Source: a virus. From it: 46,344 nt of DNA. A program made the position numbers and the translations under genes. The notes beneath the pieces were generated by a model. It had not been told where the DNA came from. It searched no databases and saw only the letters and a program-made list of their open reading frames with translations. This document shows, piece after piece, positions 14,329-46,116 of the stretch; within the stretch, counting starts at the first letter, position 1, and each line of letters opens with the position of its first letter. The stretch lies in IMG/VR virus record IMGVR_UViG_3300044940_000032, positions 1 to 46,344 of that record. One strand, 5' to 3'.

Positions 14329-14787
14329 GTGATCGTCTATGAGCCGGCGCAGGACATCGCCAACTGGGTGGCAGCCCAGCTGGGCAACGAAGCGCCGCTC
14401 GTGGACGCGGCGATCGGCTATCAGGTCGACGGAGTTCTGCGCGCGGGGGTGTACTTCGACACCATGACGCGCAACAATATCTTCGCCCACATCGCCAGTG
14501 AGGCGCCGATGCTGCCGCGCAGCCTGCTGACCGCTGTGGGCAAGTACGTCTACAAGCAGCTCGCCCTGGAACGCATGACCTTCGCCGTGCCTGAAGACAA
14601 TGCCCGAGCCCGCAGTCTCGTGCTCGCCTTGGGGTCTCATCTGGAAGCCCGGCTGCGGCGTGCGTGCGGCGACTGCGATCTGCTGCTGTATGCGCTGTGG
14701 CGCGACGCAACCCCGGCGGTTCTCCTGACGAATCGCGCGACAAGCCCCGTCCTTCAGGGTGGGGAAGCCAACGTGCCGCAGGTGTAA
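14329..14787 (+). CDS. GNAT-like acetyltransferase-fold protein, 3' end altered by TnpB element
   Basis: This 152-residue product starts at GTG 14329. The pattern AGVYFDTMTRNNIFAHIASEAPMLP, then AVGKYVYKQLALERMTFAVPEDNARAR (about 39-102), matches small phage GNAT-like proteins near tail genes, with the beta-strand and the helix leading to a diverged acyl-CoA site. The substrate is unknown and activity is not assured. The last roughly 14 residues (from SPVLQGGEA on) are encoded by the left hairpin of the inserted TnpB element, so the original C-terminus has been replaced. Confidence 0.6.
   Translation: MIVYEPAQDIANWVAAQLGNEAPLVDAAIGYQVDGVLRAGVYFDTMTRNNIFAHIASEAPMLPRSLLTAVGKYVYKQLALERMTFAVPEDNARARSLVLALGSHLEARLRRACGDCDLLLYALWRDATPAVLLTNRATSPVLQGGEANVPQV
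14745..14764 (+). repeat. Left-end hairpin of the TnpB element
   Basis: CCCC-GT-CCT is followed by a short loop and AGG-GT-GGGG, an imperfect palindrome with G:T pairs. This GCCCCGTCCTTCAGGGTGGGG-type structure (positions 14744-14764) is characteristic of IS200/IS605-family left ends, which are recognised as single-stranded hairpins. Confidence 0.75.
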
Positions 14788-14791
14788 AACC

Positions 14792-16132
14792 ATGCAACTG
14801 ACGCACAAGATCGCCCTTTGTCCGACGCCCGAGCAGGCCGACTACTTCAAGCGTGCCTGCGGGACGGCGCGGCGCGTCTGGAATTGGGCGCTGGATGAGT
14901 GGAACAGGCAGTACGCTCAAGGCAAGAAGCCGAACGCGATGGCGCTCAAGAAGCAGTTCAACGCCATCAAGTACCGCGATCCTGAGTGGCTGGATGCGAA
15001 CGGGCAGCCGTGGCTCAAGACCATCCATCGGGACGCCCACGCACAGCCCTTTGCCTACCTGGAAAAAGCCTGGAAGCGCTACTTCGCCGACATCAAGGCG
15101 GGCAAACCCGCCCATGCGCCGCAGTTCAAAAAGAAAGGCCGATGCCGCGACAGCTTCTATGTCGCCAACGACAAGTTCCGTGTCAGCGGCAAGGCGATTG
15201 GCCTGCCCAAGATCGGCACGGTCGCCATGACCGAGGCGTTGCGCTTTGAGGGCAAGATTCTCGGCGCCACCGTCTCGCGCACGACGGATCGCTGGTTCGT
15301 GGCAATTCAGGTCGAAGTGCCGGATCACATCTTTCATTGCCGTCGCGCAGGAAATGGCACCGTTGGCGTTGACCTCGGCGTGAAAGCAGCCGTGACGCTT
15401 TCCAGCGGTGAAGCGATCGAAGCGCCCAAACCGCTGAAAGCCGCGCTGCGCCGGTTGAAGATCCGTGCCAGACGGATCAGCCGCAAGATCGAAGCCGCCA
15501 AGGCTGTCGCCGGATTTGAGGCACACGCCCGGCTACCCAAAGGAACCCGCCTTCCTGTCTCTAACAACCGCCGGAAGTCTGCTGCGAGATTGGCGCGGCT
15601 GCATGCGCGCATCGCCAATGTCAGAGCGGATTTCACCCACAAGCTCACGATCCGGCTCTGCCGCGAAAACCAAGCGGTGGTGATTGAGGATTTGCACGTC
15701 AAAGGGATGCTCGCCAATGAGCGACTGGCCCGAGCGATCAGCGACGTGGGCTTTGGGATGTTTCGCTCGCAGATGGAATACAAGGCGAAACGCTACGGCA
15801 CCCGGCTCATCATCGCTGAGCGCTGGTATCCAAGCAGCCGCCTGTGTTCGGTCTGTGGCTGGAAGAATGATGCGCTCACGCTCAAAGACCGACAGTGGAC
15901 GTGTCTTGAATGCGGCACGCACCACGACCGTGACCTGAACGCGGCGCTGAATCTCAAACGGCTGGCAACCGTAACTGCCCTACCCGTGGCGAGTCCGTCC
16001 AGCAATGGCGGCGCTGCGGCAGGAAGGGTTCCTGTCGCAGCCGGGAAAGTCACGCCTGTCAGATACGAATGTGGTCAGCAAGACACGTCGGGGCAGGAAG
16101 AGAACGGTGCGCACGTTTGCGCACGTTTTTGA
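14792..16132 (+). CDS. tnpB: TnpB RNA-guided nuclease (IS605 OrfB)
   Basis: This 446-residue TnpB has an N-terminal helical part that includes the usual NWALDEWNR segment. The RuvC-like nuclease has its three acidic residues in place: D194 in GVDLG, E299 in VIEDL and D381 in HDRDLNAA. A four-Cys zinc finger (C352, C355, C371, C374) lies between the second and third. With all key residues present it is probably active as an omega-RNA-guided DNA endonuclease, which helps the element persist. ATG 14792 is chosen; an in-frame GTG at 14759 lies inside the left hairpin. The stop codon is at the element's right edge, as is common because the guide RNA overlaps the gene's 3' end. Confidence 0.93.
   Translation: MQLTHKIALCPTPEQADYFKRACGTARRVWNWALDEWNRQYAQGKKPNAMALKKQFNAIKYRDPEWLDANGQPWLKTIHRDAHAQPFAYLEKAWKRYFADIKAGKPAHAPQFKKKGRCRDSFYVANDKFRVSGKAIGLPKIGTVAMTEALRFEGKILGATVSRTTDRWFVAIQVEVPDHIFHCRRAGNGTVGVDLGVKAAVTLSSGEAIEAPKPLKAALRRLKIRARRISRKIEAAKAVAGFEAHARLPKGTRLPVSNNRRKSAARLARLHARIANVRADFTHKLTIRLCRENQAVVIEDLHVKGMLANERLARAISDVGFGMFRSQMEYKAKRYGTRLIIAERWYPSSRLCSVCGWKNDALTLKDRQWTCLECGTHHDRDLNAALNLKRLATVTALPVASPSSNGGAAAGRVPVAAGKVTPVRYECGQQDTSGQEENGAHVCARF
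16103..16130 (+). ncRNA. Right-end hairpin, likely 3' scaffold of the omega RNA
   Basis: GTGCGCA (16107-16113), loop CGTT and TGCGCAC (16118-16124) form a perfect 7-bp stem, with AAC/GTT able to extend it; T5 follows. In IS605-type elements the right end both marks the element boundary and forms the end of the omega-RNA scaffold, with the guide copied from the flank just beyond. It could equally act as a terminator. The RNA start cannot be placed from sequence. Confidence 0.5.
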
Positions 16133-17022: not shown

Positions 17023-18456
17023 ATGGCCGGGTTCTGGGGATCAGCTTCGCAGGGATTCACGCGCGGCGTCGGCCTGGGCGTCGAGAACGCGCGGTATCAG
17101 GAAGAGATGGACCTCAAGCGCGCGGAGCACGAAGCCCGCATGCGCGAACAGGCCCTGCGTGAGCGCCGGATCAGGGGCGAACTCGACGACGCCGACCGCG
17201 TGCGCGCCGCCGTGCGCAACCTCGAGGCCATGGACCGGGTCGGCGTGCCCACGGGGGTTGTCCGAGGTCTTTCCGGCCCCAGCCAGGAGATGGTATTCCG
17301 TGGCGACGCGGGGTATGGCGAAGGCGCTGCTGCCGTCAACGAGATGGCCACGGACTTCGGGCGCGAGATGCGCCGCTACGGTCAGGATGCGGGGCTGTAC
17401 GACGACCGTATCGGGCAGCGGCAGGCCACCGGCCTGGACCGCGCCAAGGGCATGCGTTCGCTGGCGTATGCCAAGGGCGACGTGCGCGAGATCGTTGCAG
17501 CCGACAAGATTGTTTCGGACAAGGAAGAAGATCAGATCATCGCCAACGCGAAGTTCGAGCCGGAAGATATCAAGTTCATCAACGACAACACCCACAGCTT
17601 CAGCGTCAGCAAGCCAGACAAATTCGGGTTCGTCGACATCTCGATCGTCAAGCCCGACGGGGACGCGGTATTCAAACGGCTGTCTGCGGCGCAGCAGAAA
17701 ACACTGGCCGGGGCGCGCGCTTTGCTGGACGTCAACCCGGTTCGCGCGTTGGAGATGTTCAAAAGCGTCGACAAGGATGTCGCTGAGGCGGTTGCCAAAG
17801 AAATGGGAATGACGCTGGATGTGGCGCGCTTTGGCAACGACGTGGCCGCCAAGCGTGTGAACGCGCAGCAGGAGATCGCTCGCACCGGCATCGCACAAGC
17901 TGGACTGGCGGAGGCGCGCTCGCGCCTTTCGAATTCGCAGTACGTGCTGATCCCCGGCCCCGACGGAATGCTGAAGCCGGCGATCCAAGGCACGGTGTTC
18001 AACCCGGTCGGCCAAAAGCTCGAAGTCGTTACCGTGCCGCTGGAGCAATCCGGCGTGGTGCCTCTCTCCGCGCTCGATCCCAAGCGTCTGAGCGAGATGG
18101 CGGAACCGCTTATTGGCAAACCTACTGGGCGCACGGTCAACGGCAAGCCAGAGGTGTACACGCCAGAAACCGCGATGGCAGCAGTACGCCAGCAAATCAT
18201 CGCCAACTACCTCCAGCAGCCGGGAACTGGGGGTCCAGATCCGAATGTCGTGAAGGCCATGAAGGAGGGCCGCTTGACGCCCGCTCCCAAGGAAGCGCCG
18301 CGCGAGGCACCCGCACAGGAAGTTCCGCAGCCGCCGCAGCCGCAACCGGAGCCGAGGTCGGGGCTGCGGTCGGGACTGGACTGGTACAGAGACTGGGTAG
18401 CGCGTGGTCGCCCCCCGCTGGAGCGTCCGCTGCTGGACATCCAACCTCCGCGTTGA
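17023..18456 (+). CDS. Internal virion/ejection-type protein 2
   Basis: This 477-residue, mostly helical protein begins MAGFWGSASQGFTRGVGLG, followed by a long charged helix (residues 20-60). A conserved-looking central part includes DIKFINDNTHSFSV. The C-terminus is Pro-rich (about 405-440). CGGAG precedes the ATG at 17023; GTG 17020 is adjacent. Size and order (between a ~280- and a ~2300-residue protein) match the T7 gp15 position in podovirus ejection cassettes. Homology to gp15 is not evident; the role is inferred. Confidence 0.65.
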   Translation: MAGFWGSASQGFTRGVGLGVENARYQEEMDLKRAEHEARMREQALRERRIRGELDDADRVRAAVRNLEAMDRVGVPTGVVRGLSGPSQEMVFRGDAGYGEGAAAVNEMATDFGREMRRYGQDAGLYDDRIGQRQATGLDRAKGMRSLAYAKGDVREIVAADKIVSDKEEDQIIANAKFEPEDIKFINDNTHSFSVSKPDKFGFVDISIVKPDGDAVFKRLSAAQQKTLAGARALLDVNPVRALEMFKSVDKDVAEAVAKEMGMTLDVARFGNDVAAKRVNAQQEIARTGIAQAGLAEARSRLSNSQYVLIPGPDGMLKPAIQGTVFNPVGQKLEVVTVPLEQSGVVPLSALDPKRLSEMAEPLIGKPTGRTVNGKPEVYTPETAMAAVRQQIIANYLQQPGTGGPDPNVVKAMKEGRLTPAPKEAPREAPAQEVPQPPQPQPEPRSGLRSGLDWYRDWVARGRPPLERPLLDIQPPR

Positions 18457-18481
18457 ACGGCATCGCGTAGGATATACGCCC

Positions 18482-21400
18482 ATGAGCTTTCTGTCCGAGC
18501 TGCGCGCCGCGCTGGGGCCTGAGTGGGACTCGCGCTCCGACGAGGAGATCCTCAGCGCCTACGCCGACGCAGCGGGGATGAGCCCCGGCCAGGTGGCGGA
18601 CCTCGCGGGATACCGCACGGGTGGCGGCACGATGAACCGCGAGCGGCTGTCGGGCTCGATCGATCGGTATCAGTCGGGTCTGTACGACGTCGGCCGTGCA
18701 GCAGCGAACTATCTGGGTGCGAAGGGACTGGCCGACACGTTCGACACGAGGCGTCGGCGCAACGAGTTCGCCGCAGACGTGGCAGCCGAGCGTGCATCGG
18801 CCCTTGGCTCCATCGACTCGTACAAGGACGTGGACTGGCTGTCGCCGTCCAGTGTCGGCAACTACGCGCTGGGGCTGGGCATCCAGGCCCTGCCGTACAG
18901 CCTGGAATTCATCCTGCCGGGTACTGCGGCGCGCATGGGCCTGCGCGGCACGCAGGCCGCTCGTGCCGCAGCGATCGCTGTCGGAGACACTGCGGCGGCT
19001 TCGCGGGCCGCCTGGAAGCTCAGGGGTGCGTCGCTGGGCACCGGCGTGGCAGCCAGTTACCCGAGTTCTGTGGGCGACATCATGTCGTCGCAGCGCGAGC
19101 AGGCAGGCACCACGGACGACGCCTCCGCTTTCGCACTGGGCGTGCCGTATGCCGCGCTGAACCTCCTCAGCCCCATCGACACGGCGCTGGCCCAGGGCAG
19201 GCTGTTTCGCAGCCCCTTGCGGGCGCTCGACAACGTCGGCGGCTGGCGTGGCGTGGCGGCGCGCACGGCCGCCACCGGCTTGCGCACGGGCGTGCAGGAG
19301 GGCCTGAACGAAGTCGGCCAAGAGGCCATGAACCAGCTCGGGCGCATGCAGGTCGACCCGACCGAGGCGTTCTTGAGCGACGCCGCGCGCAACAGGTTCG
19401 CCGAGTCGTTCGTCGGCGGTGCGGTTCTTGGCGGCACGCTGGGTGCCGGTGCCGGCGGCTGGCGGCGCAACCAGATCGACCTGCTCAAGGACACCCCGCA
19501 AGCGACGGACATGCCGAAGGGGGTGGGTGGACTGCCCGAGAGCACGTCGCCGTCGACGGGCGGGCTGCAGGAGAACAAGACGCCGCTTCTGCTGGGATGG
19601 GAGCCGCGCTACAACGTCTTCCCCGACGGCACGATTGCCGCGCTGGCAGACGACGAGCTGGCGCACCGCTACGGCTTGAAGCCGCAGCAGCTCTGGGACA
19701 TCCGCAACACGGGCACACCGCGTGCGCCCGAAACACCACGGATCGACCCCGAGATGGCGGGGGCCGACCTCTCGCCGGGCGCGCCGCGCAAACTCGACTT
19801 GTCCGGCGAAGCGGCTCCCGCCGCCGATGTTGGTGTGCGGCCCACCGAGCCGTCCAGCGCGCCGGCGGAAAACCCGGGCCTGCAGGAAATCCAGCGCCGG
19901 ATCCTGGAGTCCCGCGCAGTGGCCATGGAACAGGCCGCCGCCAAGCGGGCCGAAATCGCGCAGGCCATCGCCCGGAAGAAAGAAGAATTCGAAGCGGCCA
20001 AGGCCCGCGCCGTCGAGGTGCTGGGCAACATGAAGATGGGCAGCCGGCACGTCGAGCTGTTCATGGATCTGGAGCGCCAGCGCAACGCCGGGCTCATCGA
20101 CGAGGAAGAGTTCATCAACGACGCCGCGCTGCTGTCGCGCAGCGAACTGGGCCGGGTCAAGAAACTCATCGAGCAGCGCGACGCCGCGCAAGCCGAGGAC
20201 GTCAACAAGGTCGACACCGCCCCGGGAGGGGCCAACGATCAGCGCGACGCCGCGCAGGTCAAGGCTGCGCAGTCTCAGCCTGCACAGGCCGAGGACATCA
20301 ACAGGGTCATCACTACTCCGAGAGCGACCAATGAGCAGCCTGACGTACCTGGAACTGCCCGAGGACCTGCTGGAGCCCCTGTTGGCGGGGGTGCTGTCGC
20401 TGGCGGAAGCCTCGGAATTGTTCGACCTGCTGCTGCAGACGCCGCAAGGCCAGTGGGTGGTACTGCCGCCACGGCTGGAGTCAGCGGCCCTGCGACTGGA
20501 ACTGTGGCAGTGGAGCCCGCCGCAGGGGCGCCCGCTGCACTGACCACGACCACGCCTGCCGGGCCTCTCGACGCCGTGCAGCGTCGTCGCATGACGACCG
20601 ACCAGCTGCGCCCCATCGCCGAAGACCTCCTGCGGCGAGCAGGCGTCAAGCCCGACGCCACGCGCCTCGTCAAGCGCAAAGTCAACGGCAAGATGGTGGC
20701 TACGCCGCGCACGGCGCTGGACGTGACGATCGACATGCTGCGCGCCGACGACATGGACACGGCGCTGGTCGAAGGCGTCACCGGCATCGACTTCGTCGCC
20801 GGCACGATCGGCAAGCCCCTGACGCTCGATCAGGCCACGCTGCTGGCCGAGCAGCGCACCGGCAAGAAGATCAGCAAGCAGGCGGCGCAGGCGCGGCTGG
20901 CCAAGTACGGCATCGACCCGAAGATCATCGAGAAGATCAGCGCCGTGGACACGGCCGACACGGTCTCGGAGGCCGAGCTTGGGCTGGGGCAGGAGGGTGC
21001 CGAGGCACTGCCGGGGTTCCGCGTGGACGAGAGCCTGTCCGATGCCGCAGCATCGGGTGTGATCGATGTGGCCGACGGCAACCCGCGCATGACGCGCCGC
21101 GCCGCCGAAGCAGCGCAGCAATGGCTCAAGCAGGAGCCGCAGGCTGCTCAGGTAATGGAGAACGCCCAAGGCAAGCTGTCCAAGTCGGTGCAGGACAAGC
21201 AGGCGGTCGCCGAAGCCACGGCCGCCCCGACGGCCGGCGAGAACCCGCAATACGTGGAAAAGCGCCGCGTTCTCGCTGCTGTAAAAGCCGAACTCGAGCG
21301 CAGGCAGGAAATCGAGCGCCAGGCGCTGGCCGCGCCGAGCAAGTACAAGCCCGGCACCGTGCAGTGGGAGCTGCGCCGCGCACTGGACGAGGGCAATATC

Positions 21401-24400
21401 ACCGAGGGCGACATCGCGGAGGCTCGCGATGCGTTCAACGAAGACCTGCTCGACACCGATCCGACGTGGGACGACCTGACTCCCCAGGAACAGGCATACT
21501 GGACCGGCGTCTACATCGGCAACTTCGAGGGTCGCATCTCAGACCGGGAGTACGCACGTGAATGGCAAGACATCCTCGACTCCGCCCGCCAGCGAATCAC
21601 CGAACGACAAGCCCAGGCAAATCTCCCCGCAGCACCTGGTGGATCTGGCCGAGTTGTACGCGCGCCGGCTGCCGCCCAAGGAGTTCAAGAGGGAGATGAT
21701 CGCGCTGCACCGCAAGTACTTCGATCCGCAGGCACCGACGCCGTAGCCCTGGACGAATCGCTGACCCGCGCCGTCAGGCGCGAGGAGATGGCGCGCCACC
21801 CGGCCTTTGCCGCAGCGGTCACCCGCCTGCAGCGTGCGGGCCTGGGGCACATCCTCGACTGGGTCTCCGCGTGGCGCGTCGCGCCTTCGGTCGGTCCCAA
21901 CGGCGAAGTCGTGGCCGATGGCTGGGTCAGCGGCGACCGTGCGGGAAACTTCACGCTCACGCTGCGCGAAGACCTCGGTCAGGACCAGACCTGGGTGACG
22001 ACGCACGAACTCGGGCACATCGCGGACATGGCGCCGTATGGCGGGGCCTACTCCAGCGATGCGCGACTGCAGCCGGGCGGGGAGATCTACAACGAACTCG
22101 ACACGCTGTACCTGAGCGGCAGCAAGCTGTGGAGCGATGTGTGGGAGTGGCCGTTCAACGCCCCGCCTGCCGAGCAGGGTGGTGAGATCTTCGCCAACCT
22201 GTTCGCGGCGTACACTTCGCCGGGCCTGCGCCCGCGCCTTCAGGCGGACGCCCCGCTGGCGTTCGCGTTCATCCAAGGAGCCGTCCGTGCAATCCAAGCC
22301 CAAAACCGCCCCAGTGGCGACCCCTTCGTCGAAACCCAAATCCGCCGCCGCGCAGCCCAGCAGTTCGTCAAAGCAGGTGTTCTACAGCCGGCCGTACAAG
22401 GTGACGCCGGGGCTGGCCGAGCTGATCAAGGCCGGCAAGGTGTAAACCGATCCGTCGGTGCCAACCGCGCGGCCGAGGCAGACCGTGCGGTCAACCGAGG
22501 CGCGCGGCTGTCGCAGCTGCCCGCGCCAAGCGCGCGCACCGGCGGCATCAGGGGACTGGTCAGCAACCTGTTCAACGACGGGTTGTGGCGCACCTACCCC
22601 AGCCTGCTGGGCTGGATGAGCGGCGAGCAGCTGGCGGATCGGTTCAAGAACGCCAAGGGCATCGGGCCGGCGGTCAAGGCGTTCTCGGATTTGTCGGCAC
22701 GCATGGCGGGCCGCGCCATGCAGATCCAGGCCACCTCCGACGCGCTGCTGGCGCGCCTGAACAGCCTGCGCCGACGTGATCCTGCGGGCCACGAGACCCT
22801 GTCCAAGCTGCTGCTGCAGTCCAGCGAACTGCGCATGTGGCCCAACAAGGAGTTCCGCGACGAATCGAAGGCCAACGATCACATCGAGGACACCGTGGAG
22901 AACCGCGCCGCGCACGCCAGGCTGCGGGCGATGTGGAACAGCGCGAGCAGCGAAGTGCGCGCGCTCTACGAAGCCGTGATCGCGGACCACGACACCCGCT
23001 ACAAGGCCAAGGTGACGGCACTGCGCAAGGGCGTCGTGTCGTCCTTCTACCCGGACCTCAACGACGACGGGAAGGGCCTGAGCCGCGAGGAGATCGACCG
23101 CATCGCCGAAGCCAAGCGCAAGGACATGGGCAAGCTCATGGAAGAGCTTGGCACCACCAAGCGGCGCGCCCGCGAGCTGCGGCACCTGCGCGACGAGCTG
23201 GAGAAACTGGACGACCAGTTCACCCGGATGCCCGGCCCGTACTTCCCCTTGATGCGTTTCGGCGATCACGTGGTGTCCATCAAGTCCCAGGCGTTCCAGG
23301 CCGCCGAGCGGGCGCTGATCCGGGCCAGCGACGCGCTGCGCCACGCCGAAGCGACCAGTGATCCCGATGCCGACCTCGAGGAAGAACGCAAGGCCGTGAA
23401 GGACGCGCAGGCGGCCGTGGCCAGGCTCAAGGCCAGTGGCGACGACTACCGGGTGGTCTTCTTCGAGACAATCGGGGAAGCGCGCGAATACCGCGAGATG
23501 GCCGAAGCGCAGCTCGGCGAGGACTACGAGATCTCGCAGAGCATCAAGGACCAGTACCTGCGCCAGATCGACGCCGTGAGCCCCACGTTCATGCGCCGGC
23601 TGGAGCGGCGGCTGGCGGCGAACTTCGAGGGCGAGAAGGGCGACCAGATTCGCCAGTCGGTGCGCGAGATGTACATCGAGATGCTGCCCGAGAACAGCAT
23701 GATGAAGGCCACCCTCAAGCGGGCCACCGTGGCGGGCTACAGCGACGACGTGATTCGCGTGTTTTCCGCCTCGGCGATCCGCGACGCGCACGGCATCAGC
23801 CGGCTGGAGTTCCAGGCCCCGCTGCGCGACGCGCTGGACCAGCTGCGTTTCGACCGCGCGAACGTGGACGCCAAGATCGTCGGCGCCGAACTGGCCAGGC
23901 GGCTGGAGATGAACTTCCGCTTCGAGCGTCACCCGGTGCTGGCGGCGCTGACGAACGTGACCTACATGACCCGGCTGGGCCTGTCGCCGTCGTTCCTGCT
24001 GACCAACCTGTCGCAGCCGTGGTTCGTCTCCGCGCCCATCATCGCCGCGCGCCATCACTTCAAGACCATCGGCGAGCTGCGCCGCGCAACCGTGGCCGCT
24101 GTCCAGATGCTGCGCTTCGACTGGAAGGACCAGAAGACGGCGCAGTTCCAGTTCAACCCCGAGCGCGCGTTCAAGGCCGGGCAGATCACCGAGGACGAGA
24201 TGCTGATGCTCAAGTCGCTGCTGGACAGCGGGCGCATCGACATCACGATCACGCAGGACCTGGGCGTCGCGGCGCAGGGCGAGGCACACAACTGGCTGAA
24301 CAAGGCCACGCAGATGATGGGCCTGCCGGCGCAGCAGCTGGAGGTGCTCAACCGCGTGTCGACCGCGCTGGCGGCCTACCGGCTGGAGCGCCAGCTGCAA

Positions 24401-25498
24401 CTGAGCAAGAACGTGGGCAACAAGGAGGCCCTGCAGGCCGCGCGCGACTACGCCGACCGCATCGTCGGCGAGACGCACCTGAACTACGCCGCAGAGAACC
24501 GCGCTCGCCACATGCACCCCAACGGCTGGGGCGGCTGGGGCCGGGTGATGTGGCAGTTCCGCTCGTACCAGCAGGGCATGATCTACCTGGTTCTCAAGAA
24601 CCTGATCGATGCCGCCAAGGGCGACAAGGAGGCTCGCCGTGCTTCGTATTACCTGGCCGGCACCATGCTGGCGTCTGCCGGCGTGAGCGGGCTGCCCGGG
24701 GCCGCGACGGTGTTCTTCGTGGCGCAGGCGATCTACAACGCGTTCAAGGACGACGACGACGAAAAAGACCTGCGGCAGATGTTTTACGCGGGTCTGGAGG
24801 AGGTCCTCGGCACCACCGGGGCCGACATGGCCATGAAGGGCTCGCTGGCGGCCATCGGGCTGGACATCTCGCAGCGAGTCGGCATGGGCGACATATTCTC
24901 GCCGGTGCGCTTCGGCCCGGACCACCTCAACCCGAGGGATCAGGCAGTGGGGTACTTCGGCGCAATGGTAGGGGGTGCGGCGCTGGGCGTGCTGGCCGAC
25001 TACTGGAAGGCCGCGAACCTGGCCGCCGATGGCGAGTTCGCCCGCGCCGCGCAGACGGCGCTGCCGAAGGTGTTGTCGGACCAGATCCGCTGGGGTCGCG
25101 AGATGACGCAGGGCGTCACGGACTCGGCTGGACGGGTGCTCGTCACCCCCGAAGAACGCGACTTCGTGGACGCGCTGGCCCGCGCCGCAGGTATCCCGAC
25201 GGTGGAAGACGCCCGCCGCACCGAGCGCCGTCAGGCGCTGTTCGAGGCGCGCGAGAAACGCGACCGTGTGCGCAACCAGCTGCTCGCGAAATTCGCCCGG
25301 GCGCGCCTTGCCGGCGAGCCGGTCACGGACATCCTCGACGAGATCAACGAGTTCAACGCCCGCCACTACGACGCGCGCATCACGCCGGCCAGCCGCGAAG
25401 CGGCGGTGCGCAGTACCCGCATCCGCAGCATGGAGCTGCGAAACGGGGTGCCGGTGCGCAAGCGCGATCAGCAGCTGGCCGAGGAACTCGGCATCTGA
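18482..25498 (+). CDS. Giant polyvalent internal virion protein with HExxH motif and LPD38-like C-terminus
   Basis: This 2338-residue protein is probably the large ejection protein delivered into the host with the DNA (T7 gp16 position). Visible parts: a helical N-terminus, a Gly-rich hydrophobic stretch (FVGGAVLGGTLGAGAGG, about 310-330), a coiled coil near 475-530, and a zincin-like HELGH at 1175-1179. A long C-terminal region (about 1350-2338) includes SFLLTNLSQPW near 1837 and GWGRVMWQFRSYQQG near 2020, as in large polyvalent proteins of the PLxRFG/LPD38 type. Linkers at about 617-687, 1026-1088 and 1268-1321 are Ala/Gly/Pro/Arg-rich and coincide with three +1-frame genes. ATG 18482 is preferred; a GTG at 18404 overlaps the previous gene. 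Confidence 0.75.
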   Translation: MSFLSELRAALGPEWDSRSDEEILSAYADAAGMSPGQVADLAGYRTGGGTMNRERLSGSIDRYQSGLYDVGRAAANYLGAKGLADTFDTRRRRNEFAADVAAERASALGSIDSYKDVDWLSPSSVGNYALGLGIQALPYSLEFILPGTAARMGLRGTQAARAAAIAVGDTAAASRAAWKLRGASLGTGVAASYPSSVGDIMSSQREQAGTTDDASAFALGVPYAALNLLSPIDTALAQGRLFRSPLRALDNVGGWRGVAARTAATGLRTGVQEGLNEVGQEAMNQLGRMQVDPTEAFLSDAARNRFAESFVGGAVLGGTLGAGAGGWRRNQIDLLKDTPQATDMPKGVGGLPESTSPSTGGLQENKTPLLLGWEPRYNVFPDGTIAALADDELAHRYGLKPQQLWDIRNTGTPRAPETPRIDPEMAGADLSPGAPRKLDLSGEAAPAADVGVRPTEPSSAPAENPGLQEIQRRILESRAVAMEQAAAKRAEIAQAIARKKEEFEAAKARAVEVLGNMKMGSRHVELFMDLERQRNAGLIDEEEFINDAALLSRSELGRVKKLIEQRDAAQAEDVNKVDTAPGGANDQRDAAQVKAAQSQPAQAEDINRVITTPRATNEQPDVPGTARGPAGAPVGGGAVAGGSLGIVRPAAADAARPVGGTAATAGVSGPATGTVAVEPAAGAPAALTTTTPAGPLDAVQRRRMTTDQLRPIAEDLLRRAGVKPDATRLVKRKVNGKMVATPRTALDVTIDMLRADDMDTALVEGVTGIDFVAGTIGKPLTLDQATLLAEQRTGKKISKQAAQARLAKYGIDPKIIEKISAVDTADTVSEAELGLGQEGAEALPGFRVDESLSDAAASGVIDVADGNPRMTRRAAEAAQQWLKQEPQAAQVMENAQGKLSKSVQDKQAVAEATAAPTAGENPQYVEKRRVLAAVKAELERRQEIERQALAAPSKYKPGTVQWELRRALDEGNITEGDIAEARDAFNEDLLDTDPTWDDLTPQEQAYWTGVYIGNFEGRISDREYAREWQDILDSARQRITERQAQANLPAAPGGSGRVVRAPAAAQGVQEGDDRAAPQVLRSAGTDAVALDESLTRAVRREEMARHPAFAAAVTRLQRAGLGHILDWVSAWRVAPSVGPNGEVVADGWVSGDRAGNFTLTLREDLGQDQTWVTTHELGHIADMAPYGGAYSSDARLQPGGEIYNELDTLYLSGSKLWSDVWEWPFNAPPAEQGGEIFANLFAAYTSPGLRPRLQADAPLAFAFIQGAVRAIQAQNRPSGDPFVETQIRRRAAQQFVKAGVLQPAVQGDAGAGRADQGRQGVNRSVGANRAAEADRAVNRGARLSQLPAPSARTGGIRGLVSNLFNDGLWRTYPSLLGWMSGEQLADRFKNAKGIGPAVKAFSDLSARMAGRAMQIQATSDALLARLNSLRRRDPAGHETLSKLLLQSSELRMWPNKEFRDESKANDHIEDTVENRAAHARLRAMWNSASSEVRALYEAVIADHDTRYKAKVTALRKGVVSSFYPDLNDDGKGLSREEIDRIAEAKRKDMGKLMEELGTTKRRARELRHLRDELEKLDDQFTRMPGPYFPLMRFGDHVVSIKSQAFQAAERALIRASDALRHAEATSDPDADLEEERKAVKDAQAAVARLKASGDDYRVVFFETIGEAREYREMAEAQLGEDYEISQSIKDQYLRQIDAVSPTFMRRLERRLAANFEGEKGDQIRQSVREMYIEMLPENSMMKATLKRATVAGYSDDVIRVFSASAIRDAHGISRLEFQAPLRDALDQLRFDRANVDAKIVGAELARRLEMNFRFERHPVLAALTNVTYMTRLGLSPSFLLTNLSQPWFVSAPIIAARHHFKTIGELRRATVAAVQMLRFDWKDQKTAQFQFNPERAFKAGQITEDEMLMLKSLLDSGRIDITITQDLGVAAQGEAHNWLNKATQMMGLPAQQLEVLNRVSTALAAYRLERQLQLSKNVGNKEALQAARDYADRIVGETHLNYAAENRARHMHPNGWGGWGRVMWQFRSYQQGMIYLVLKNLIDAAKGDKEARRASYYLAGTMLASAGVSGLPGAATVFFVAQAIYNAFKDDDDEKDLRQMFYAGLEEVLGTTGADMAMKGSLAAIGLDISQRVGMGDIFSPVRFGPDHLNPRDQAVGYFGAMVGGAALGVLADYWKAANLAADGEFARAAQTALPKVLSDQIRWGREMTQGVTDSAGRVLVTPEERDFVDALARAAGIPTVEDARRTERRQALFEAREKRDRVRNQLLAKFARARLAGEPVTDILDEINEFNARHYDARITPASREAAVRSTRIRSMELRNGVPVRKRDQQLAEELGI
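20331..20543 (+). CDS. Nested small gene (+1 frame) inside the giant virion gene, 70 residues
   Basis: This 70-residue reading frame begins MSSLTYLELPEDLLEPLLAG and continues with EASELFDLLLQTP and PRLESAALRLELWQW. It looks like an ordered, acidic-amphipathic helical protein with balanced composition. The giant gene's frame over the same bases is low complexity (runs such as GGGAVAGG and VEPAAGAPA). That contrast suggests the small frame is the constrained one. ATG at 20331; the upstream ribosome site is weak, so coupling to translation of the host gene may be needed. Function unknown. Confidence 0.5.
   Translation: MSSLTYLELPEDLLEPLLAGVLSLAEASELFDLLLQTPQGQWVVLPPRLESAALRLELWQWSPPQGRPLH
21558..21746 (+). 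CDS. Nested small gene (+1 frame) inside the giant virion gene, 62 residues
   Basis: This frame starts at GTG 21558 with GGGAG seven bases before it. After a Ser/Pro-rich start it contains an apparently helical domain, HLVDLAELYARRLPPKEFKR followed by EMIALHRKYFD. The giant protein's own frame here is a Pro/Ala/Gly/Arg linker (NLPAAPGGSGRVVRAPAAA). Same relative frame as the 20331 and 22287 frames. No recognised family. Confidence 0.5.
   Translation: MNGKTSSTPPASESPNDKPRQISPQHLVDLAELYARRLPPKEFKREMIALHRKYFDPQAPTP
22287..22445 (+). CDS. Nested small gene (+1 frame) inside the giant virion gene, 52 residues
   Basis: A perfect AAGGAG at 22275-22280 stands six bases before a GTG at 22287. The 52-residue product is a Lys/Ser/Pro/Ala-rich basic stretch followed by VFYSRPYKVTPGLAELIKAG. 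The giant frame over it is a Gln/Ala/Arg/Gly-rich linker. The strong ribosome site makes this the best supported of the three by initiation signal. Function unknown; the basic tail could bind nucleic acid or another protein. Confidence 0.5.
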   Translation: MQSKPKTAPVATPSSKPKSAAAQPSSSSKQVFYSRPYKVTPGLAELIKAGKV

Positions 25499-37991: not shown

Positions 37992-38843
37992 TCACGCCAT
38001 CGCCAGGGCGTGCCCGCGCGGCACTTTGAAGCCGGCCGCCTTGGCGTGCCCACCGCCGCCGTACAGCTTCGCCACGTCCGACACGTCCACGCCGTCGTCG
38101 GTGGCGCGCAGGCTGAACACGCGGCCATCGGCCGTGTCCCAGTAGCAGGCCGCGAACGGCTCTCCCTGGGCCATCAGGTGCGCGGCATCGCTCGCCATCG
38201 TGTACGGCAGGCTGGCCACCGGCACGTCATGGGTGCCGATCACCATGCGGCGCTTGCACACGGCCACCAGCTCTGCCACGTCCTTGTGGTGCTTGCGCTC
38301 GATGGCGGCGCCGGCCGCGGTCATCTTCAGCAGTTCAACCTGATCGGCGCTCATCAGCTTGTCCCACGTCTCGAAGCTGTACTCAAGGCTGAAGACCACC
38401 GCGTGAATCTCGCGGGTGCCGGGCAGCTTGAAACGCCACAGGTCGCGGTCTTCCACATGGCCAAGCAGCAGCGGTCGGTCTTCGCCGGGGAACAGGTAGT
38501 CCCACGCCAAGGTGGCGCCGCTGCGGTTCAAGTCGGTGAAGTGCGCCAGTTTCTTCGGCTCGCCGGCCCCGCTGTCCTGCATGAACAGCGGCTGCAAGTC
38601 TTCGATGGCGGTCTTGTGGTGGTCGATCAGGCACACGCTGTTCGCGACCTTCAGCATCTGCTCCACTACCGCGCGCTTGTAGCTGAAGTCCACGAGGTAC
38701 ACGTCGCGCCCGGTCACGTCGGGCGGGTCTTGCTGGTGCACGCCTGCCACGTAGTCGGCGCCAGTGCCGTACTTGCGCCAGAAGCACCACGCGGCACTGA
38801 AGCCGTCTGCACAGTTGCCGTGGTAGATCACGAGTGGTCGCAT
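37992..38843 (-). CDS. DHH/DHHA1 family phosphoesterase
   Basis: This 283-residue enzyme has the DHH set: HGNCADGFSAAW (9-20), VDFSY (near 51), DHHKTA (74-79, the DHH triad), and VEDRDLW (near 130). It ends in GGGGHAKAAGF (265-275), the DHHA1 substrate motif. Family members (NrnA, DhhP, GdpP) split short oligonucleotides, pAp or linear and cyclic dinucleotides using Mn2+. In this phage it could recycle nucleotides or remove host signalling nucleotides; the choice cannot be made from sequence. It is close in length to NrnA. Confidence 0.88.
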   Translation of the reverse strand: MRPLVIYHGNCADGFSAAWCFWRKYGTGADYVAGVHQQDPPDVTGRDVYLVDFSYKRAVVEQMLKVANSVCLIDHHKTAIEDLQPLFMQDSGAGEPKKLAHFTDLNRSGATLAWDYLFPGEDRPLLLGHVEDRDLWRFKLPGTREIHAVVFSLEYSFETWDKLMSADQVELLKMTAAGAAIERKHHKDVAELVAVCKRRMVIGTHDVPVASLPYTMASDAAHLMAQGEPFAACYWDTADGRVFSLRATDDGVDVSDVAKLYGGGGHAKAAGFKVPRGHALAMA

Positions 38844-40126: not shown

Positions 40127-40345
40127 GCAGGCCACGCATTTCTGCAGGGCGAGCTGCAGGCGTTCGAGTGCCAGGCGCGCTCCCGGCCGACCATAGTCGG
40201 CCTGGGCATGGACGTAGGACATCGCGTACTCCATCGCATCGGCGGCTTCGCGCAGAATCGCGTCGAGTCTGGCCAGCTCGTCGGCCGCCGCACGCTGCAG
40301 CGCCAGCGACGGCCCCTGGTTGATGAGTGCTTCGCGCAGTTTCAC
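40118..40345 (-). CDS. Small helical phage protein, unknown
   Basis: This 75-residue protein starts at GTG 40345, coupled to the upstream stop (GTGA). It is nearly all helical (ALQRAAADELARLDAILREAA; ALERLQLALQKCVACL). It could be a small coiled-coil adaptor. Longer readings of the frame upstream are shadows. Confidence 0.55.
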   Translation of the reverse strand: MKLREALINQGPSLALQRAAADELARLDAILREAADAMEYAMSYVHAQADYGRPGARLALERLQLALQKCVACLT

Positions 40346-40809
40346 GGGTTCTCCTCGTCTTCGGACAGTACATCGGTCAGCGGGCGCAGCTCGCTGGGCG
40401 GTCGCGTCGCTGGCAGGCCGAACAGGGCCACGCCGCCTTCGGCGACGGACCACGTGCGGGCCTGCGAGTCAAACACGTACAGATACTCGCCGCCGCACTG
40501 TTGAGTCAATGCCTGCAGTGCCCGCAGGTCAGTCGAGCTGATTGCGTGAGTTTCGACCTCACCTCGGTCTCGGCCGTATGCCTCGCACCATTCGGGGTGC
40601 CCGGGCGAACCGAAATCATGCCTGTCACCCAGCGCCTCGCCGAGACTCGACAGATCGCCGAGAGCGATCAAAGCCTCGACCTTGTCGGGGTCGGTGTAGT
40701 GATCGAGCAGGACCCGCCCGACCCCGGACGGGTAGCCGTCCCAGTGGCAGTAGATGGACTCGAAGGCGCCGCCGGGGCGGGCGACAGCGATGCGGCAACG
40801 TGTGGCCAT
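40342..40809 (-). CDS. Phage protein with IYCHWDGYP motif, amidoligase-cassette companion
   Basis: This 155-residue protein begins MATRCRIAVARPGG and has SIYCHWDGYPSGVG (18-31), LLDHYTDPDKV and LIALGDLSSLG. This signature is frequent in phage genomes, commonly near amidoligase/amidotransferase-like genes; no function is established. The His-Trp-Asp-Gly-Tyr core might be a substrate-binding site or a modification target. AAAGGA precedes the ATG. Confidence 0.65.
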   Translation of the reverse strand: MATRCRIAVARPGGAFESIYCHWDGYPSGVGRVLLDHYTDPDKVEALIALGDLSSLGEALGDRHDFGSPGHPEWCEAYGRDRGEVETHAISSTDLRALQALTQQCGGEYLYVFDSQARTWSVAEGGVALFGLPATRPPSELRPLTDVLSEDEENP

Positions 40810-40821
40810 GGCGGGTTCCTT

Positions 40822-41196
40822 TCAGTATTCAGAGGGAAGGATGAGGGCGAATCGCTCGCCCTCGTCGGCGAGGAAGAACGTCAGCCTGCCCAGCGGCAGG
40901 TCGGTGTGGTCGATGAAGCGGGTCCACACCGGGGGGTCCTCGTCGTTGACGGACAGCTCGATGGTCGCAGCATCGTCGGCCACGGTCACGTGAACGACCC
41001 CCAGGTAGCTGCCGCTGTTGCGCAGCGGCTTGAGGCACTCGGTGGCGATGATGTCAAGCAGCCAGTGGCACCCGGCATCGGCCACCTCCTGCACCCCGTC
41101 GGAGTACTGGAACTGGCGCACCAGTGGGTGACGCACGAAGAAATTCGCCCCATTGCGAAACGCCGTGTAGGCGTTGGTGAGTTTGGCAGTGTCCAT
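40822..41196 (-). CDS. DUF6876-like protein, amidoligase-cassette companion
   Basis: This 124-residue protein has QFQYSDGVQEVADAGCHWLLDIIAT (residues 28-52) and ends in a series of strands including FIDHTDLPLGRLTFFLADEG. The pattern (Y-x-DG-V near the start, W-x-x-D-I, then HTDLPL) resembles the DUF6876 family seen in phages and bacteria. Function unknown. It is placed 2 bases after the amidotransferase stop, so it probably serves that pathway. Confidence 0.6.
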   Translation of the reverse strand: MDTAKLTNAYTAFRNGANFFVRHPLVRQFQYSDGVQEVADAGCHWLLDIIATECLKPLRNSGSYLGVVHVTVADDAATIELSVNDEDPPVWTRFIDHTDLPLGRLTFFLADEGERFALILPSEY

Positions 41197-41198
41197 GT

Positions 41199-42485
41199 TC
41201 AGGCTCCTTCAAAAGACGTGTGGGCCGAGACCCACGAAAACGCTGCGCTGCGCGCAGCCTCGAACGACTCGTGGTTGATGTCGGCGTGCACGACGCTACC
41301 GTCGGGATCCTCGACAACGAAACTCCAGCCGTCGTGGTCGAGATCGATGTCGATGCGGTGTCCCATGAAGTACAGGACCTGCGAGCGGTCATCGTCGTCC
41401 TCGCCAGCGTGCGGCGACTCCTCGTCCGTGTCAACCCAGTCGAAGTAGTAGCACATGCACTCGGCGACCATCTGGGGATCGGTACGCGCCGTGGCCTCGA
41501 GGACCGACGCATAGCCGTTCATGATGCCCGTGCAGATGGCCTTCTCGCGCTTGGTCATGATCTCCTCGCCGGCGAGCGCCTCGCGCACCGACCTGGTCGG
41601 GACCGGATCGAGGTACGTCAGCGCCGCACGAATGGCCTCCTTCGGAAACTGCTCGATGGTCTCGGCGCACGCATCGACGTCGGGGCGCGTCAGGTCGTGG
41701 AGGAACTGATCGCGATCGAAGCGATCCGCGCGCGGCCTGACCACGTCCGCCACGTCCACCGCCTGCCGGGTGGCACGGCCATACAGGTCCACCACCTTGG
41801 CGTCGGACCGGTCGTGCCGCCACGAATCGTAGTCGTCCAGGTCGTCCCAGCGTCCACGCCCCCAGCCCGAGTAGCCGCTCACACTGAACACCTTGCGGTA
41901 GCCGGGAATCAGCAGGCTCGGGTCCCACGCATACGTGTTGGCGAACCACATCCCGTCGTGCTCGATGCCCTGATCGCGGTTGACGATGGTCATCTCGCCG
42001 TCGTCGTCGATGAAGACGAAGCGGTTGTTTTCGATGAACTCGCCCACCATCGACGCGAAGCCCCGGCTGTGGACGATCTTGGGGTGCATCGCCACCGCAT
42101 CGGCCAGGTAGTCCTGGATGAAGTGCCACGTGTCGGAGCGGGTCCTGTCGGTGTCGTTGCCGGTGTGCAGGACTCCGTTGTGCGCCATCGCCACCTTGCC
42201 CGGCACGACGACATACGGGTGGCAGTTGTCGTGGTTCGTATGCCCGTGCGTGGTCCAGCGGAAATGCACGACGAGGTTGCGGTCGTCGCTCGGGTAGTCG
42301 CGAATCTGGGCGACGAGGTCTTCGATGGTCCTGGGCAGGGTCTTGACGATCTTGAGCCCGCGCCTGTTGGCCCATGCGGCCCCCAGGCCGTCGGGGTTTG
42401 ACTTGAAGAGGCTTTCGAGCACGTCACGCCGCTCGAGCAGCAGGGTGCGAATCTTGCCCGAGGGGCCTGCGATGATCTGGCACAT
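41199..42485 (-). CDS. Class II glutamine amidotransferase-like Ntn hydrolase
   Basis: This 428-residue protein begins MC, so after Met removal Cys2 is the N-terminal nucleophile of class II amidotransferases. The supporting set is in place: HFRWTTHGH (75-82, Arg-Gly type site), NHDNCHPY (84-91), AHNGVL (101-106, Asn-Gly oxyanion site) and RSDT (116-119). It should release ammonia from glutamine. The C-terminal 200 residues are an acidic added domain. It lies directly after the predicted amidoligase, which would be the ammonia or amide-using partner, though amidoligases of this type can also join amines directly. Confidence 0.8.
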   Translation of the reverse strand: MCQIIAGPSGKIRTLLLERRDVLESLFKSNPDGLGAAWANRRGLKIVKTLPRTIEDLVAQIRDYPSDDRNLVVHFRWTTHGHTNHDNCHPYVVVPGKVAMAHNGVLHTGNDTDRTRSDTWHFIQDYLADAVAMHPKIVHSRGFASMVGEFIENNRFVFIDDDGEMTIVNRDQGIEHDGMWFANTYAWDPSLLIPGYRKVFSVSGYSGWGRGRWDDLDDYDSWRHDRSDAKVVDLYGRATRQAVDVADVVRPRADRFDRDQFLHDLTRPDVDACAETIEQFPKEAIRAALTYLDPVPTRSVREALAGEEIMTKREKAICTGIMNGYASVLEATARTDPQMVAECMCYYFDWVDTDEESPHAGEDDDDRSQVLYFMGHRIDIDLDHDGWSFVVEDPDGSVVHADINHESFEAARSAAFSWVSAHTSFEGA

Positions 42486-42524
42486 GGTGAGGTCCTTTCA
42501 GTGGTGGTTAGTGGTGGTAGTGAA

Positions 42525-44273
42525 TCAGGCAGCAGCGAGCAATTCCTTCTGAGGCTCGCGCCACGCCCCGTGCTTGTTGGTCACGCCGAGCCACTTGCAC
42601 AGGTGGTGGTACTGGCGAGCGTGGGAACGCAGCCAGTCGGTGAACGCCTTGGCCGTGAGGTTCTTGTAGGACGCCGTGCGGCAGTACACGACGATGGCGT
42701 GGGTGAACTCCAGCTGCGCGAACATCCGGTCCTTGCGCAGGGACGCCCGAAACAGGCGCACCTCGACGGTGTTCTGGCTGCCGTAGTCGTTGTCATCCAG
42801 CCCGAGGCGACGCGACTCGCTGCGCGTCAGGTTGGTCAGGTTGACCATGACGTGGCGCCTGGGCGACTTGTTCTTGAGCGCCTTGAGCGGGTCGGTGATC
42901 TGGTCCGGCCTGCCGTAGTCCCACCCAGCGTAATCCTGAGCCCACTTGTCCTCCTGCGGGTGGCGACCTGCGATGCTGCGCAGGAAGCACGCGTTGTCCG
43001 GCGTGTTGAAGAACTGCAGGAACTTGCCGAGCGACAGGGCCGTGAACGCCCGGGAGTCGATGTGCACGTGCATGCCGCAGGTGCCGGCATCCCACGCCTT
43101 GAGCCGCCTGGGTTTCCACGCGCCGAACCGCGCGAGGTGGCGCGCCAGCGAAGTGGGCCGCGTGACGATCTCGATGCCGTTGCAGCCGATGGACGCATCG
43201 GCCTTGCAGATGACGTGGTCGTCGCCGAGCTGGTCGCGAATGTCGCGCACCGCACCGGACACGGTGCCGGACGTGACGACGGTTTCCAGCTCGATGCCCA
43301 TGTGGAAGTCGCCGCTGCTGGACGTGGTGAACGACGGGTCCACGCGCAGGAAGTCAAGCACGTCCGCGCCATACACCATGCGACGGTCGGGGTCGCGCGT
43401 GGAGTCCCCGTCCTCGTCCTCGTCCTCATCATAGTCGGGCTCGTCATAGTCGGGCTCGGGGTTCAGGTGATACTCGCCGTCGCGCTCCCAGTAGTAGACG
43501 TCCTCGCGCCAGCGGTACGTGCCGTCGTCGACCACCTGCACGACCTCGTCCGCGAAACACGAATCGCACACGGTGGAGCGGCTGAAACGCGGGCCGATCT
43601 GGTGGGACTCTTCCTCCACGCACACGTGCCCGCAGTCGGACAGGCGGGGCAGGTGTCCCTCGCAGACGTCGTGGTCGCGCAGCGCCTCGCGCAGCCGGTT
43701 GACGGTGCGTTCCAGGGACGTGTGCGAGACCACGTTCTGCAGGATGTCCAGCGTCTCGACAAGGTCAAAGGCGTAGTCCCGGCAGTCGTCGGCGATGAGG
43801 CGGCGCACCTGCAGGCACAGCTGCCAGTACAGGTCGCGGGCGCGGGGGATGCGATGCGGCGGCACGCCACTGAGGCGATGGATGGGCGCAACGGCGAACC
43901 GGCTGCCGGGATACAGCACGTACCGATACTCCTCGCACAGCGCCAGGCGTTCCCCGGCAGTGGGCGCGATCTGCACCGGCGGCCGGACGTCGACGGCGTT
44001 GCGGTCCCACAAGTTGTTGCCCCACAGAATGCGACCGGCGCACCGCATCGTGCCCCACGTCCGCCTGACTTCGTCGGTGCAATTCGCGCGCCGCACGATA
44101 TTCCACTTCGACAGATCGTCGTACCTCCATGCGAGGATATTCGGCGTGAACATCACGACATAGGGGTAGTTCAGGTGCACGCTGAAATACTTGTAAGGGG
44201 TCAGCACCGTGTCGAGGATTTCTTCACGGGTAGGTTCGCGGGCAGATTCGTTGGTCGTATTGGTAGCGGTCAT
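42525..44273 (-). CDS. Predicted amidoligase (COOH-NH2 ligase, glutamine synthetase-like fold)
   Basis: This 582-residue protein ends in an amidoligase_2-type domain: GDFHMGIELET (321-331, metal-binding Glu pair), KADASIGCNGIEIVTRP (357-373), CGMHVHID (399-406) and VEVRLFRASL (near 510), the Arg for phosphate. Such enzymes use ATP to join a carboxyl to an amine on peptides or proteins. The front has an added Cys cluster (C204, C214, C218, C236, C239), probably zinc-binding, and an acidic linker DEDEDED near 283-290. The substrate is unknown. Its neighbour is an amidotransferase, fitting a small modification pathway. Confidence 0.85.
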   Translation of the reverse strand: MTATNTTNESAREPTREEILDTVLTPYKYFSVHLNYPYVVMFTPNILAWRYDDLSKWNIVRRANCTDEVRRTWGTMRCAGRILWGNNLWDRNAVDVRPPVQIAPTAGERLALCEEYRYVLYPGSRFAVAPIHRLSGVPPHRIPRARDLYWQLCLQVRRLIADDCRDYAFDLVETLDILQNVVSHTSLERTVNRLREALRDHDVCEGHLPRLSDCGHVCVEEESHQIGPRFSRSTVCDSCFADEVVQVVDDGTYRWREDVYYWERDGEYHLNPEPDYDEPDYDEDEDEDGDSTRDPDRRMVYGADVLDFLRVDPSFTTSSSGDFHMGIELETVVTSGTVSGAVRDIRDQLGDDHVICKADASIGCNGIEIVTRPTSLARHLARFGAWKPRRLKAWDAGTCGMHVHIDSRAFTALSLGKFLQFFNTPDNACFLRSIAGRHPQEDKWAQDYAGWDYGRPDQITDPLKALKNKSPRRHVMVNLTNLTRSESRRLGLDDNDYGSQNTVEVRLFRASLRKDRMFAQLEFTHAIVVYCRTASYKNLTAKAFTDWLRSHARQYHHLCKWLGVTNKHGAWREPQKELLAAA

Positions 44274-44321
44274 TTCAGTTCTCTAGTCAGGTTGGTGGGT
44301 GGAAAGTAAACGGATGCCGGG

Positions 44322-44498
44322 TCACAGGCCGATCACCAGCAGTGCCGCGACAAGGCACGCGAGGAAAAACACCAGCCACGCCATCTCGTGGCGCGACGGG
44401 TTCTTGTAGGGACCCTCGATGGGGTCCATGGACGCGGGGCGCCACGGGCTGGAGTGGGTGCGCCCGTGCAGGATCTGGCGGTGTTCGGGAAGGGCCAT
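44322..44498 (-). CDS. Small membrane protein before the amidoligase
   Basis: This 58-residue protein has a hydrophilic front (MALPEHRQILHGRTHSSPW) and a C-terminal hydrophobic helix (MAWLVFFLACLVAALLVIGL) that ends the protein, a tail-anchor layout. GGAG precedes ATG 44498. It may be the membrane partner or substrate of the amidoligase pathway, but this is only positional. Confidence 0.55.
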   Translation of the reverse strand: MALPEHRQILHGRTHSSPWRPASMDPIEGPYKNPSRHEMAWLVFFLACLVAALLVIGL

Positions 44499-45848: not shown

Positions 45849-45894
45849 GGGAGTGTTTGGCGCGTGCAGGCCGGGGGGTGCGGGGGGTTTTGGG
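45849..45894 (+). other. G-rich tract with potential to form a G-quadruplex
   Basis: Two G6 runs (45873-45878 and 45882-45887) and a G3 run (45892-45894) are separated by 3-4 bases; each G6 can supply two G3 tracts. It stands between the palindrome and the tandem repeats. No coding is seen in 45781-45896. Confidence 0.4.
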
Positions 45895-45896
45895 CG

Positions 45897-46116
45897 TCTT
45901 TCGTTCTTACTTACAGTCTTACTGCCTTCGTTCGCGCGCGGTAGCGGGCAGTCTTTCGTTCTTACTTACAGTCTTACTGCCTTCGTTCGCGCGCGGTAGC
46001 GGGCAGTCTTTCGTTCTTACTTGCTGTCTTACTGCCTTCAAATCCCGTCCGGTTCGGGCAGTCTTTCGTTCTTACTTGCTGTCTTACTGCCTTCGTTCGC
46101 GCGCAGTCGCGGGTGC
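45897..46116 (+). repeat. Four tandem 55-bp repeats (iteron-like)
   Basis: Units start at 45897, 45952, 46007 and 46062. Each has a conserved core of about 39 bp (GGGCAGTCTTTCGTTCTTAC then TTACAGTCTTACTGCCTTC or TTGCTGTCTTACTGCCTTC) and a 16-bp segment that differs in unit 3 (AAATCCCGTCCGGTTC) from units 1 and 2. GGCAGT and ACTGCC frame the core as a 6-bp inverted repeat. The word TTCTTAC recurs in the palindrome and at the early promoter. Iterated binding sites for a replication initiator or regulator are likely. Confidence 0.88.

Follow-up and report, generated by a model that had tools for sequence, protein, structure and literature searches.

A conserved amidoligase-amidotransferase gene pair in a virus record and its possible role in glutamine-dependent amidation

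The IMG/VR virus record IMGVR_UViG_3300044940_000032 (46,344 bases, possibly a fragment; the whole stretch is referred to as the window) carries on its minus strand a gene for an Amidoligase_2 protein, followed directly by one for a class II glutamine amidotransferase (GAT). An earlier note, made from the sequence alone, had placed both genes with three small neighbours in a modification cassette spanning positions 40342-44498. Its coordinates and family calls were right for all five open reading frames (ORFs), as judged by ORF, Pfam, phrog and hydropathy analyses; gene calls in the window and in all surveyed loci were ORF-based. Of its interpretation, the enzyme pair, the catalytic residues and the co-occurrence of the two genes held up, while the extent of the cassette and the proposed small substrates did not. 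The two enzyme genes probably encode one functional unit, with near-obligate pairing, and they alone make up the cassette.

The amidoligase is a divergent member of its family, scoring 24.9 bits against PF12224 (Amidoligase_2; curated cut-off 22) and matching phrog_16683 at 1.6e-13; the Amidoligase_2 model also matched 79 of 84 relatives (E up to 0.1). A disordered region (residues ~1-136) and a helical, zinc-finger-like region with C236xxC239 (~140-275) precede a catalytic domain of the glutamine synthetase/gamma-glutamylcysteine synthetase (GS/GCS) fold (~322-562). Across 93 amidoligases, G326, E328, E330, D359, E368, G400 and H402 were invariant, E504 was present in 92, and H404, R437, N478 and R506 were nearly invariant, which covers the motifs G326-x-E328-x-E330 (G-x-E-x-E) and G400-x-H402-x-H404. 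An AlphaFold2 model built from alignments of relatives gave 323 residues a predicted local distance difference test score (pLDDT) of 90 or more, including a confident catalytic domain. Searched against the PDB with Foldseek, this model returned YbdK at the top, followed by glutamine synthetases, with a probability of 1.00 for the leading matches, and further matches to gamma-glutamylmethylamide synthetase, Dop, plant glutamate-cysteine ligase and PafA. Whole-chain template modelling (TM) scores of these matches were low (0.25-0.38), which reflects the long additional N-terminus as well as the evolutionary distance. Model, fold matches and residue conservation together identify a GS/GCS fold with metal/ATP-binding acidic residues, in agreement with the glutamine synthetase-like fold proposed earlier, and ATP-dependent amide formation is the chemistry expected of such a protein.

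The cysteine cluster ascribed to the amidoligase is likewise real and a trait of the family: upstream of the catalytic domain, 137 of 148 paired amidoligases carry at least one CxxC and 82 carry at least four, the window protein retaining a single one (C236-C239). LIM or double-zinc-ribbon models were matched by single paired amidoligases. The zinc fingers had raised DNA modification as a candidate function, which we rejected, as none of the window genes scanned could be assigned to a base-modification enzyme family.

The amidotransferase matched Pfam GATase_4 at 32.7 bits (cut-off 23) and consists of a GlmS-type glutaminase domain (residues 1 to ~190), a linker and a C-terminal region (~255-428). 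Its glutaminase domain contains C2, R76, T79, H80, H89, H102, N103, G104 and D118; C2, R76, T79, H89, H102, N103 and G104 were present in 99/99 amidotransferases and D118 in 98, in line with the predicted class II enzyme with a Cys2 nucleophile. E. coli GlmS aligns with the protein across RWxTHG, N-x-HP and HNG, and a Foldseek search with the AlphaFold2 model gave the glutaminase domain of GlmS as the best match, with EgtC next. At the level of profiles, the GlmS model was matched by 59 of 62 family members and the EgtC model by seven; the window protein did not match the EgtC model at E up to 0.1, and a PDB search with the family profile (E up to 0.01) returned GlmS and PurF and missed EgtC. 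As the residues named as catalytic in the earlier note, E328/E330 in the one protein and C2 in the other, are conserved throughout, both proteins look active as far as their sequences can tell. The amidotransferase would be expected to hydrolyse glutamine and to pass the ammonia to its partner.

To assess the pairing, we used each protein in turn as the seed for a survey of 2.9 million viral contigs and retained the best 80 loci per seed. The amidotransferase lay directly downstream on the same strand in 78 of the 80 amidoligase-seeded loci, and in the remaining two the contig stops 657 and 2 bases past the amidoligase. Seeding with the amidotransferase placed an amidoligase upstream in 74/80 loci. 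Once near-duplicates were removed, the amidotransferase was found in 100/100 and the amidoligase in 97/100 viral loci, the next commonest gene being one of the replication module (36/100). Among 68 loci from bacteria and archaea (one genome per species; 47 loci non-redundant), 62 held both genes, and four of the other six stop at a contig edge, so that the co-occurrence in other genomes anticipated for the pair is borne out. The order amidoligase then amidotransferase was found in 154 of 157 pairs; the gap measured at most 40 nucleotides (nt) in 132 of them and was zero or overlapping in 54. Paired sequences diverge down to ~20% identity, and retention over such large distances argues that the pair is useful during infection. 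Phages that carry it infect Gram-negative bacteria and mycobacteria, and it is also present in Clostridia and Bacteroidota genomes. One contig filed under Candidatus Nitrosotalea (L174) is phage-like (primase, helicase, ATP-grasp), carries the pair in reversed order and is probably mis-binned; an argument against peptidoglycan based on this archaeal host was dropped for that reason.

Distances in the two protein trees correlated at r = 0.60, compared with a maximum of 0.05 over 500 shuffles. Of 68 well-supported amidoligase splits, 45 recur in the amidotransferase tree and 10 are contradicted, indicating that the pair mostly, though not always, travels together. Shared phage descent could be the source of much of this correlation, although not of all of it, because the surrounding genes vary. 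Computation establishes the families, folds and catalytic residues of both proteins as well as their near-obligate pairing.

Since the survey seeds came from paired phages, the viral and bacterial sets are biased toward pairs, and we therefore added a family-wide sample of 798 genomes, 399 each from Pseudomonadota and Bacillota. Amidoligase_2 matches were present in 33 and 24 genomes of the two sets. A class II amidotransferase of the window kind accompanied only two of the 57 sampled loci (L239-L295); both belong to the window branch, and one comes from the genome that had already yielded L170. Instead, Peptidase_C26, a class I GAT-like hydrolase, adjoined Amidoligase_2 in 19/27 Pseudomonadota loci, and a gamma-glutamyl cyclotransferase did so in 23/30 Bacillota loci. 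These other bacterial PF12224 proteins belong to the same catalytic family as the window amidoligase, but score 100-300 bits, in contrast to 25 bits, and differ in their partner. Class II pairing is therefore not a trait of all Amidoligase_2 proteins, as had been considered, but marks one branch, which usually bears N-terminal zinc fingers. The cyclotransferase profile, made from three Bacillota proteins, misses an annotated phage cyclotransferase (L006), and its zero count in phages was not used as evidence.

The remaining genes of the proposed cassette did not share this conservation. Neither a third gene nor any small gene was conserved beside the pair among 100 viral and 47 bacterial non-redundant loci. 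The 58-residue ORF had no relative in the neighbour survey of related loci, 2 of 167 loci contained DUF6876 again, there on the opposite strand, and none of the relatives' neighbourhoods surveyed contained the HWDGYP gene. The span of 40342-44498 thus shrinks to the two enzymes, and we rejected the small neighbours as substrates or partners because they are not conserved next to the pair. A terminator-like hairpin lies upstream of the 58-residue ORF (44601-44586); this ORF is probably on the same transcript as the enzyme pair, yet is no conserved part of the module.

Table 1. The enzyme pair and adjacent features in the window
Feature	Position	Strand	Basis
Amidoligase_2 protein, 582 aa	42525-44273	minus	Pfam, phrog, AlphaFold2/Foldseek
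Class II glutamine amidotransferase, 428 aa, starts Met-Cys	41199-42485	minus	Pfam GATase_4, AlphaFold2/Foldseek
Intergenic gap amidoligase/amidotransferase, 39 nt	42486-42524	minus	AAAGGA-type ribosome-binding site before ATG-TGC (sequence)
58-aa ORF, one strongly hydrophobic C-terminal stretch	44322-44498	minus	hydropathy
DUF6876 protein, 124 aa, downstream neighbour	40822-41196	minus	PF21781, 66.5 bits (cut-off 27)
HWDGYP-motif protein (MATRCRIAV...HWDGYP), downstream neighbour	40342-40809	minus	phrog_1987, 4e-32

Some neighbours recur in parts of the family. In bacteria, a 97-residue protein upstream and a serine recombinase downstream were each present in 25/47 loci, and Clostridia copies of the pair (within L169-L236) are often flanked by both, pointing to mobile elements rather than to a substrate. 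A gene of 77-85 residues (HFFAAS...WLGFFEV) lies upstream of the pair in some members of the near clade; neither the window nor any other clade has it. An ATP-grasp-like ligase lies downstream of the pair in L154 (3538-4308) and its relatives, with the same cluster in 16/100 non-redundant viral loci; there, as in phiEco32, it may form a third component.

Elsewhere in the window, a TnpB-like protein (14759-16132, plus strand) with HTH_OrfB, OrfB_IS605 and a Cas12f1-like TNB domain lies between tail genes; its acidic catalytic motifs appear intact, no TnpA was recognised alongside, and the gene could be an IS605/IS607-type insertion or a retained phage gene. A protein of 2364 residues (18404-25498, plus strand) has an LPD39 polyvalent-protein domain and is probably an ejected virion protein. 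A 1382-residue tail-fibre-like gene contains 3.4 copies of a 30-bp (10-residue) repeat (11737-11837), four copies of a 55-bp tandem repeat occupy the apparently non-coding right end (45892-46113), and a DHH phosphoesterase (37992-38843, minus strand; phrog_4771, 4e-102) is encoded near replication genes.

The pair adds one more example to a class already known from computational proposals. The OM43 phages MEP401 and MEP402 (Zobellviridae) carry it, and the authors suggested wall modification, by reference to phiEco32, or secondary metabolites, by reference to Marvin (PMC10580990). As in the window, the two genes are adjacent, in the same order, and the amidoligase bears a CxxC array. Identities to the window proteins over full alignments are 23-24% (amidoligase) and 26-27% (amidotransferase), the amidotransferase is shorter (290 versus 428 residues), the small neighbours are unrelated to those in the window and the phage backbone differs. 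Cluster S mycobacteriophages, among them Marvin (gp105-gp106), likewise encode an adjacent amidoligase and amidotransferase in this order; the Marvin proteins match our family profiles at 7.9e-68 and 1.1e-46, are encoded at the right-hand end of their actinophage genome and are both annotated only as amidotransferase domain proteins. More distant homologues of both window proteins, again in the same order, are gp84-gp83 of phiEco32 (2.9e-11 and 6.4e-8) and gp18-gp19 of LUZ24 (9.6e-7 and 5.2e-10). In those phages the core is joined by a COOH-NH2 ligase, a RimK-like ATP-grasp ligase and a gamma-glutamyl cyclotransferase. The window thus shares, at a distance, the core of this five-gene cassette but not the three extra families; PF14395, PF08443 and PF06094 had no match anywhere in the record, which is possibly a fragment.

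A 'peptidoglycan modification cassette' has been described in PSA-HP1 and relatives (PMC5498523), annotated genes have been listed for UFV-P2 (PMC3890496) and tf (PMC3517423), and the idea that such genes act in superinfection was repeated in a prophage study (PMC11318856). Published speculation thus centres on a change of the peptidoglycan or cell surface that counters superinfection (PMC5498523, PMC10580990, PMC11318856). These sources (PMC10580990, PMC5498523) bear out what the earlier note said of such phage pairs, namely that their proposed action is on peptides or cell surfaces and that their biochemistry is not known. In the literature, we found no report of the pair's reaction or of a biochemical test of it.

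Two kinds of cellular system invite comparison. EgtA-EgtC and PuuA-PuuD each combine a GS/GCS-fold ligase with an amidotransferase-fold gamma-glutamyl hydrolase; PuuA and EgtA, like YbdK, join the gamma-carboxyl of glutamate to amines, and EgtC and PuuD remove the gamma-glutamyl group. They are accompanied by other enzymes of their pathways, in contrast to the window pair, which has none conserved, and provide an analogy for an explanation that competes with amidation. MurT has a Mur-ligase fold, and GatD is a class I GAT. In peptidoglycan amidation by MurT-GatD (PMC3267633), a ligase and a glutaminase from one operon amidate a carboxylate with the nitrogen of glutamine, an analogy to the window pair in function, for which we claim no homology.

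On this basis, the pair probably acts as one glutamine-dependent enzyme that modifies a molecule of the infected cell. We consider ammonia-dependent amidation by a glutamine-dependent amidoligase pair the best explanation, with a probability of roughly 0.45. The GlmS-type Ntn domain would hydrolyse glutamine through Cys2 and yield ammonia, the GS/GCS-fold amidoligase would spend ATP to turn a carboxylate of the acceptor into an acyl phosphate, and the activated carboxylate would react with the ammonia to leave an amide on the acceptor. For the zinc-finger region of the amidoligase, a probable role is binding of either the acceptor or the partner. Such a scheme implies that the two proteins would form a complex, transfer ammonia between them and release an amide product. 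Without a conserved third gene, these two proteins should suffice for a productive reaction, and because the hosts range so widely, from Gram-negative and mycobacterial phages to Clostridia and Bacteroidota, the acceptor should be common to bacteria; carboxylates of peptidoglycan precursors are a reasonable guess.

Several observations weigh against amidation. Among the 157 surveyed pairs, none is an amidoligase-amidotransferase fusion, and the position of Trp74, a channel gate in GlmS, is not conserved in the amidotransferase family. Three phage loci (L106, L110 and L123) have the amidotransferase and no amidoligase in the available sequence. In the structural comparison, the amidotransferase matched EgtC, which hydrolyses gamma-glutamyl amides, second after GlmS, and the Peptidase_C26 and gamma-glutamyl cyclotransferase neighbours of the other branches could mean a shared hydrolytic role of the partner. 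As a separate observation, the amidotransferase genes of L106, L110 and L123 sit in a run of genes with apparent thymidylate synthase and dihydrofolate reductase genes.

The EgtC match and the partners in other branches lead to an alternative absent from the earlier note, in which the partner is a gamma-glutamyl hydrolase instead of an ammonia supplier: the amidoligase would link the gamma-carboxyl of glutamate to a small-molecule amine of host or phage, and the partner would remove the gamma-glutamyl group. YbdK as the best fold match of the amidoligase fits this scheme, as does EgtC for its partner, and since all three partner types seen across Amidoligase_2 can break gamma-glutamyl amides, we keep it as a serious rival. 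Adding and removing the same group would, however, be futile with only two conserved genes and no further enzyme, and the GlmS-like rather than EgtC-like profile of the amidotransferase argues against it, leaving this explanation doubtful although well worth retaining. Conjugation to proteins or peptides, with PafA-like isopeptide bonds formed by the amidoligase and edited or deamidated by the amidotransferase, appears distinctly improbable. Dop and PafA are among the fold matches, the zinc fingers could hold a protein, and the title of Iyer 2009, the origin of the proposal, as cited in PMC10580990, proposes peptide modification of proteins for phage amidoligases; against this, the pair conserves no small protein in the non-redundant loci, and the 58-residue ORF of the window has no counterpart.

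A further proposal is about what the pair acts on and can stand alongside the amidation chemistry: the pair may be a reduced phiEco32/LUZ24 cassette whose core acts on the wall and blocks superinfection without the three extra enzymes. The distant homologues in the same order, the lack of the three other families in the window and the repeated wall and superinfection proposals speak for it, but the peptidoglycan target is a conjecture in the cited papers and no feature of the window points to the wall, so we regard this proposal, too, as rather unlikely. That the two are metabolic genes adjacent by chance is refuted. Only their being separate genes would favour it, whereas order and near contact are kept in 154/157 pairs over widely diverged sequences and this partner is missing beside the Amidoligase_2 genes sampled from other branches.

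We tentatively entertain, short of an even chance, a broader view in which the zinc-finger-bearing branch of Amidoligase_2 with a class II GAT is a distinct two-protein enzyme, spread across bacterial phyla by phages and mobile DNA, whose partner was swapped (class I GAT-like peptidase, cyclotransferase or class II GAT) while the ligase stayed and which forms an amide on an acceptor new to phage modification. What is new here is that the paired branch is defined, that its partner is contrasted with those found elsewhere in the family and that the neighbours no longer count as part of the cassette. With the partner relation fixed and the small neighbours removed as substrate candidates, the question becomes testable, and Marvin gp105-gp106, from a phage that grows on a laboratory strain, offers a tractable copy of the pair. 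If peptidoglycan precursors are amidated, the pair would give phages a way to edit the host wall; if another molecule is modified, it would represent a new kind of phage modification.

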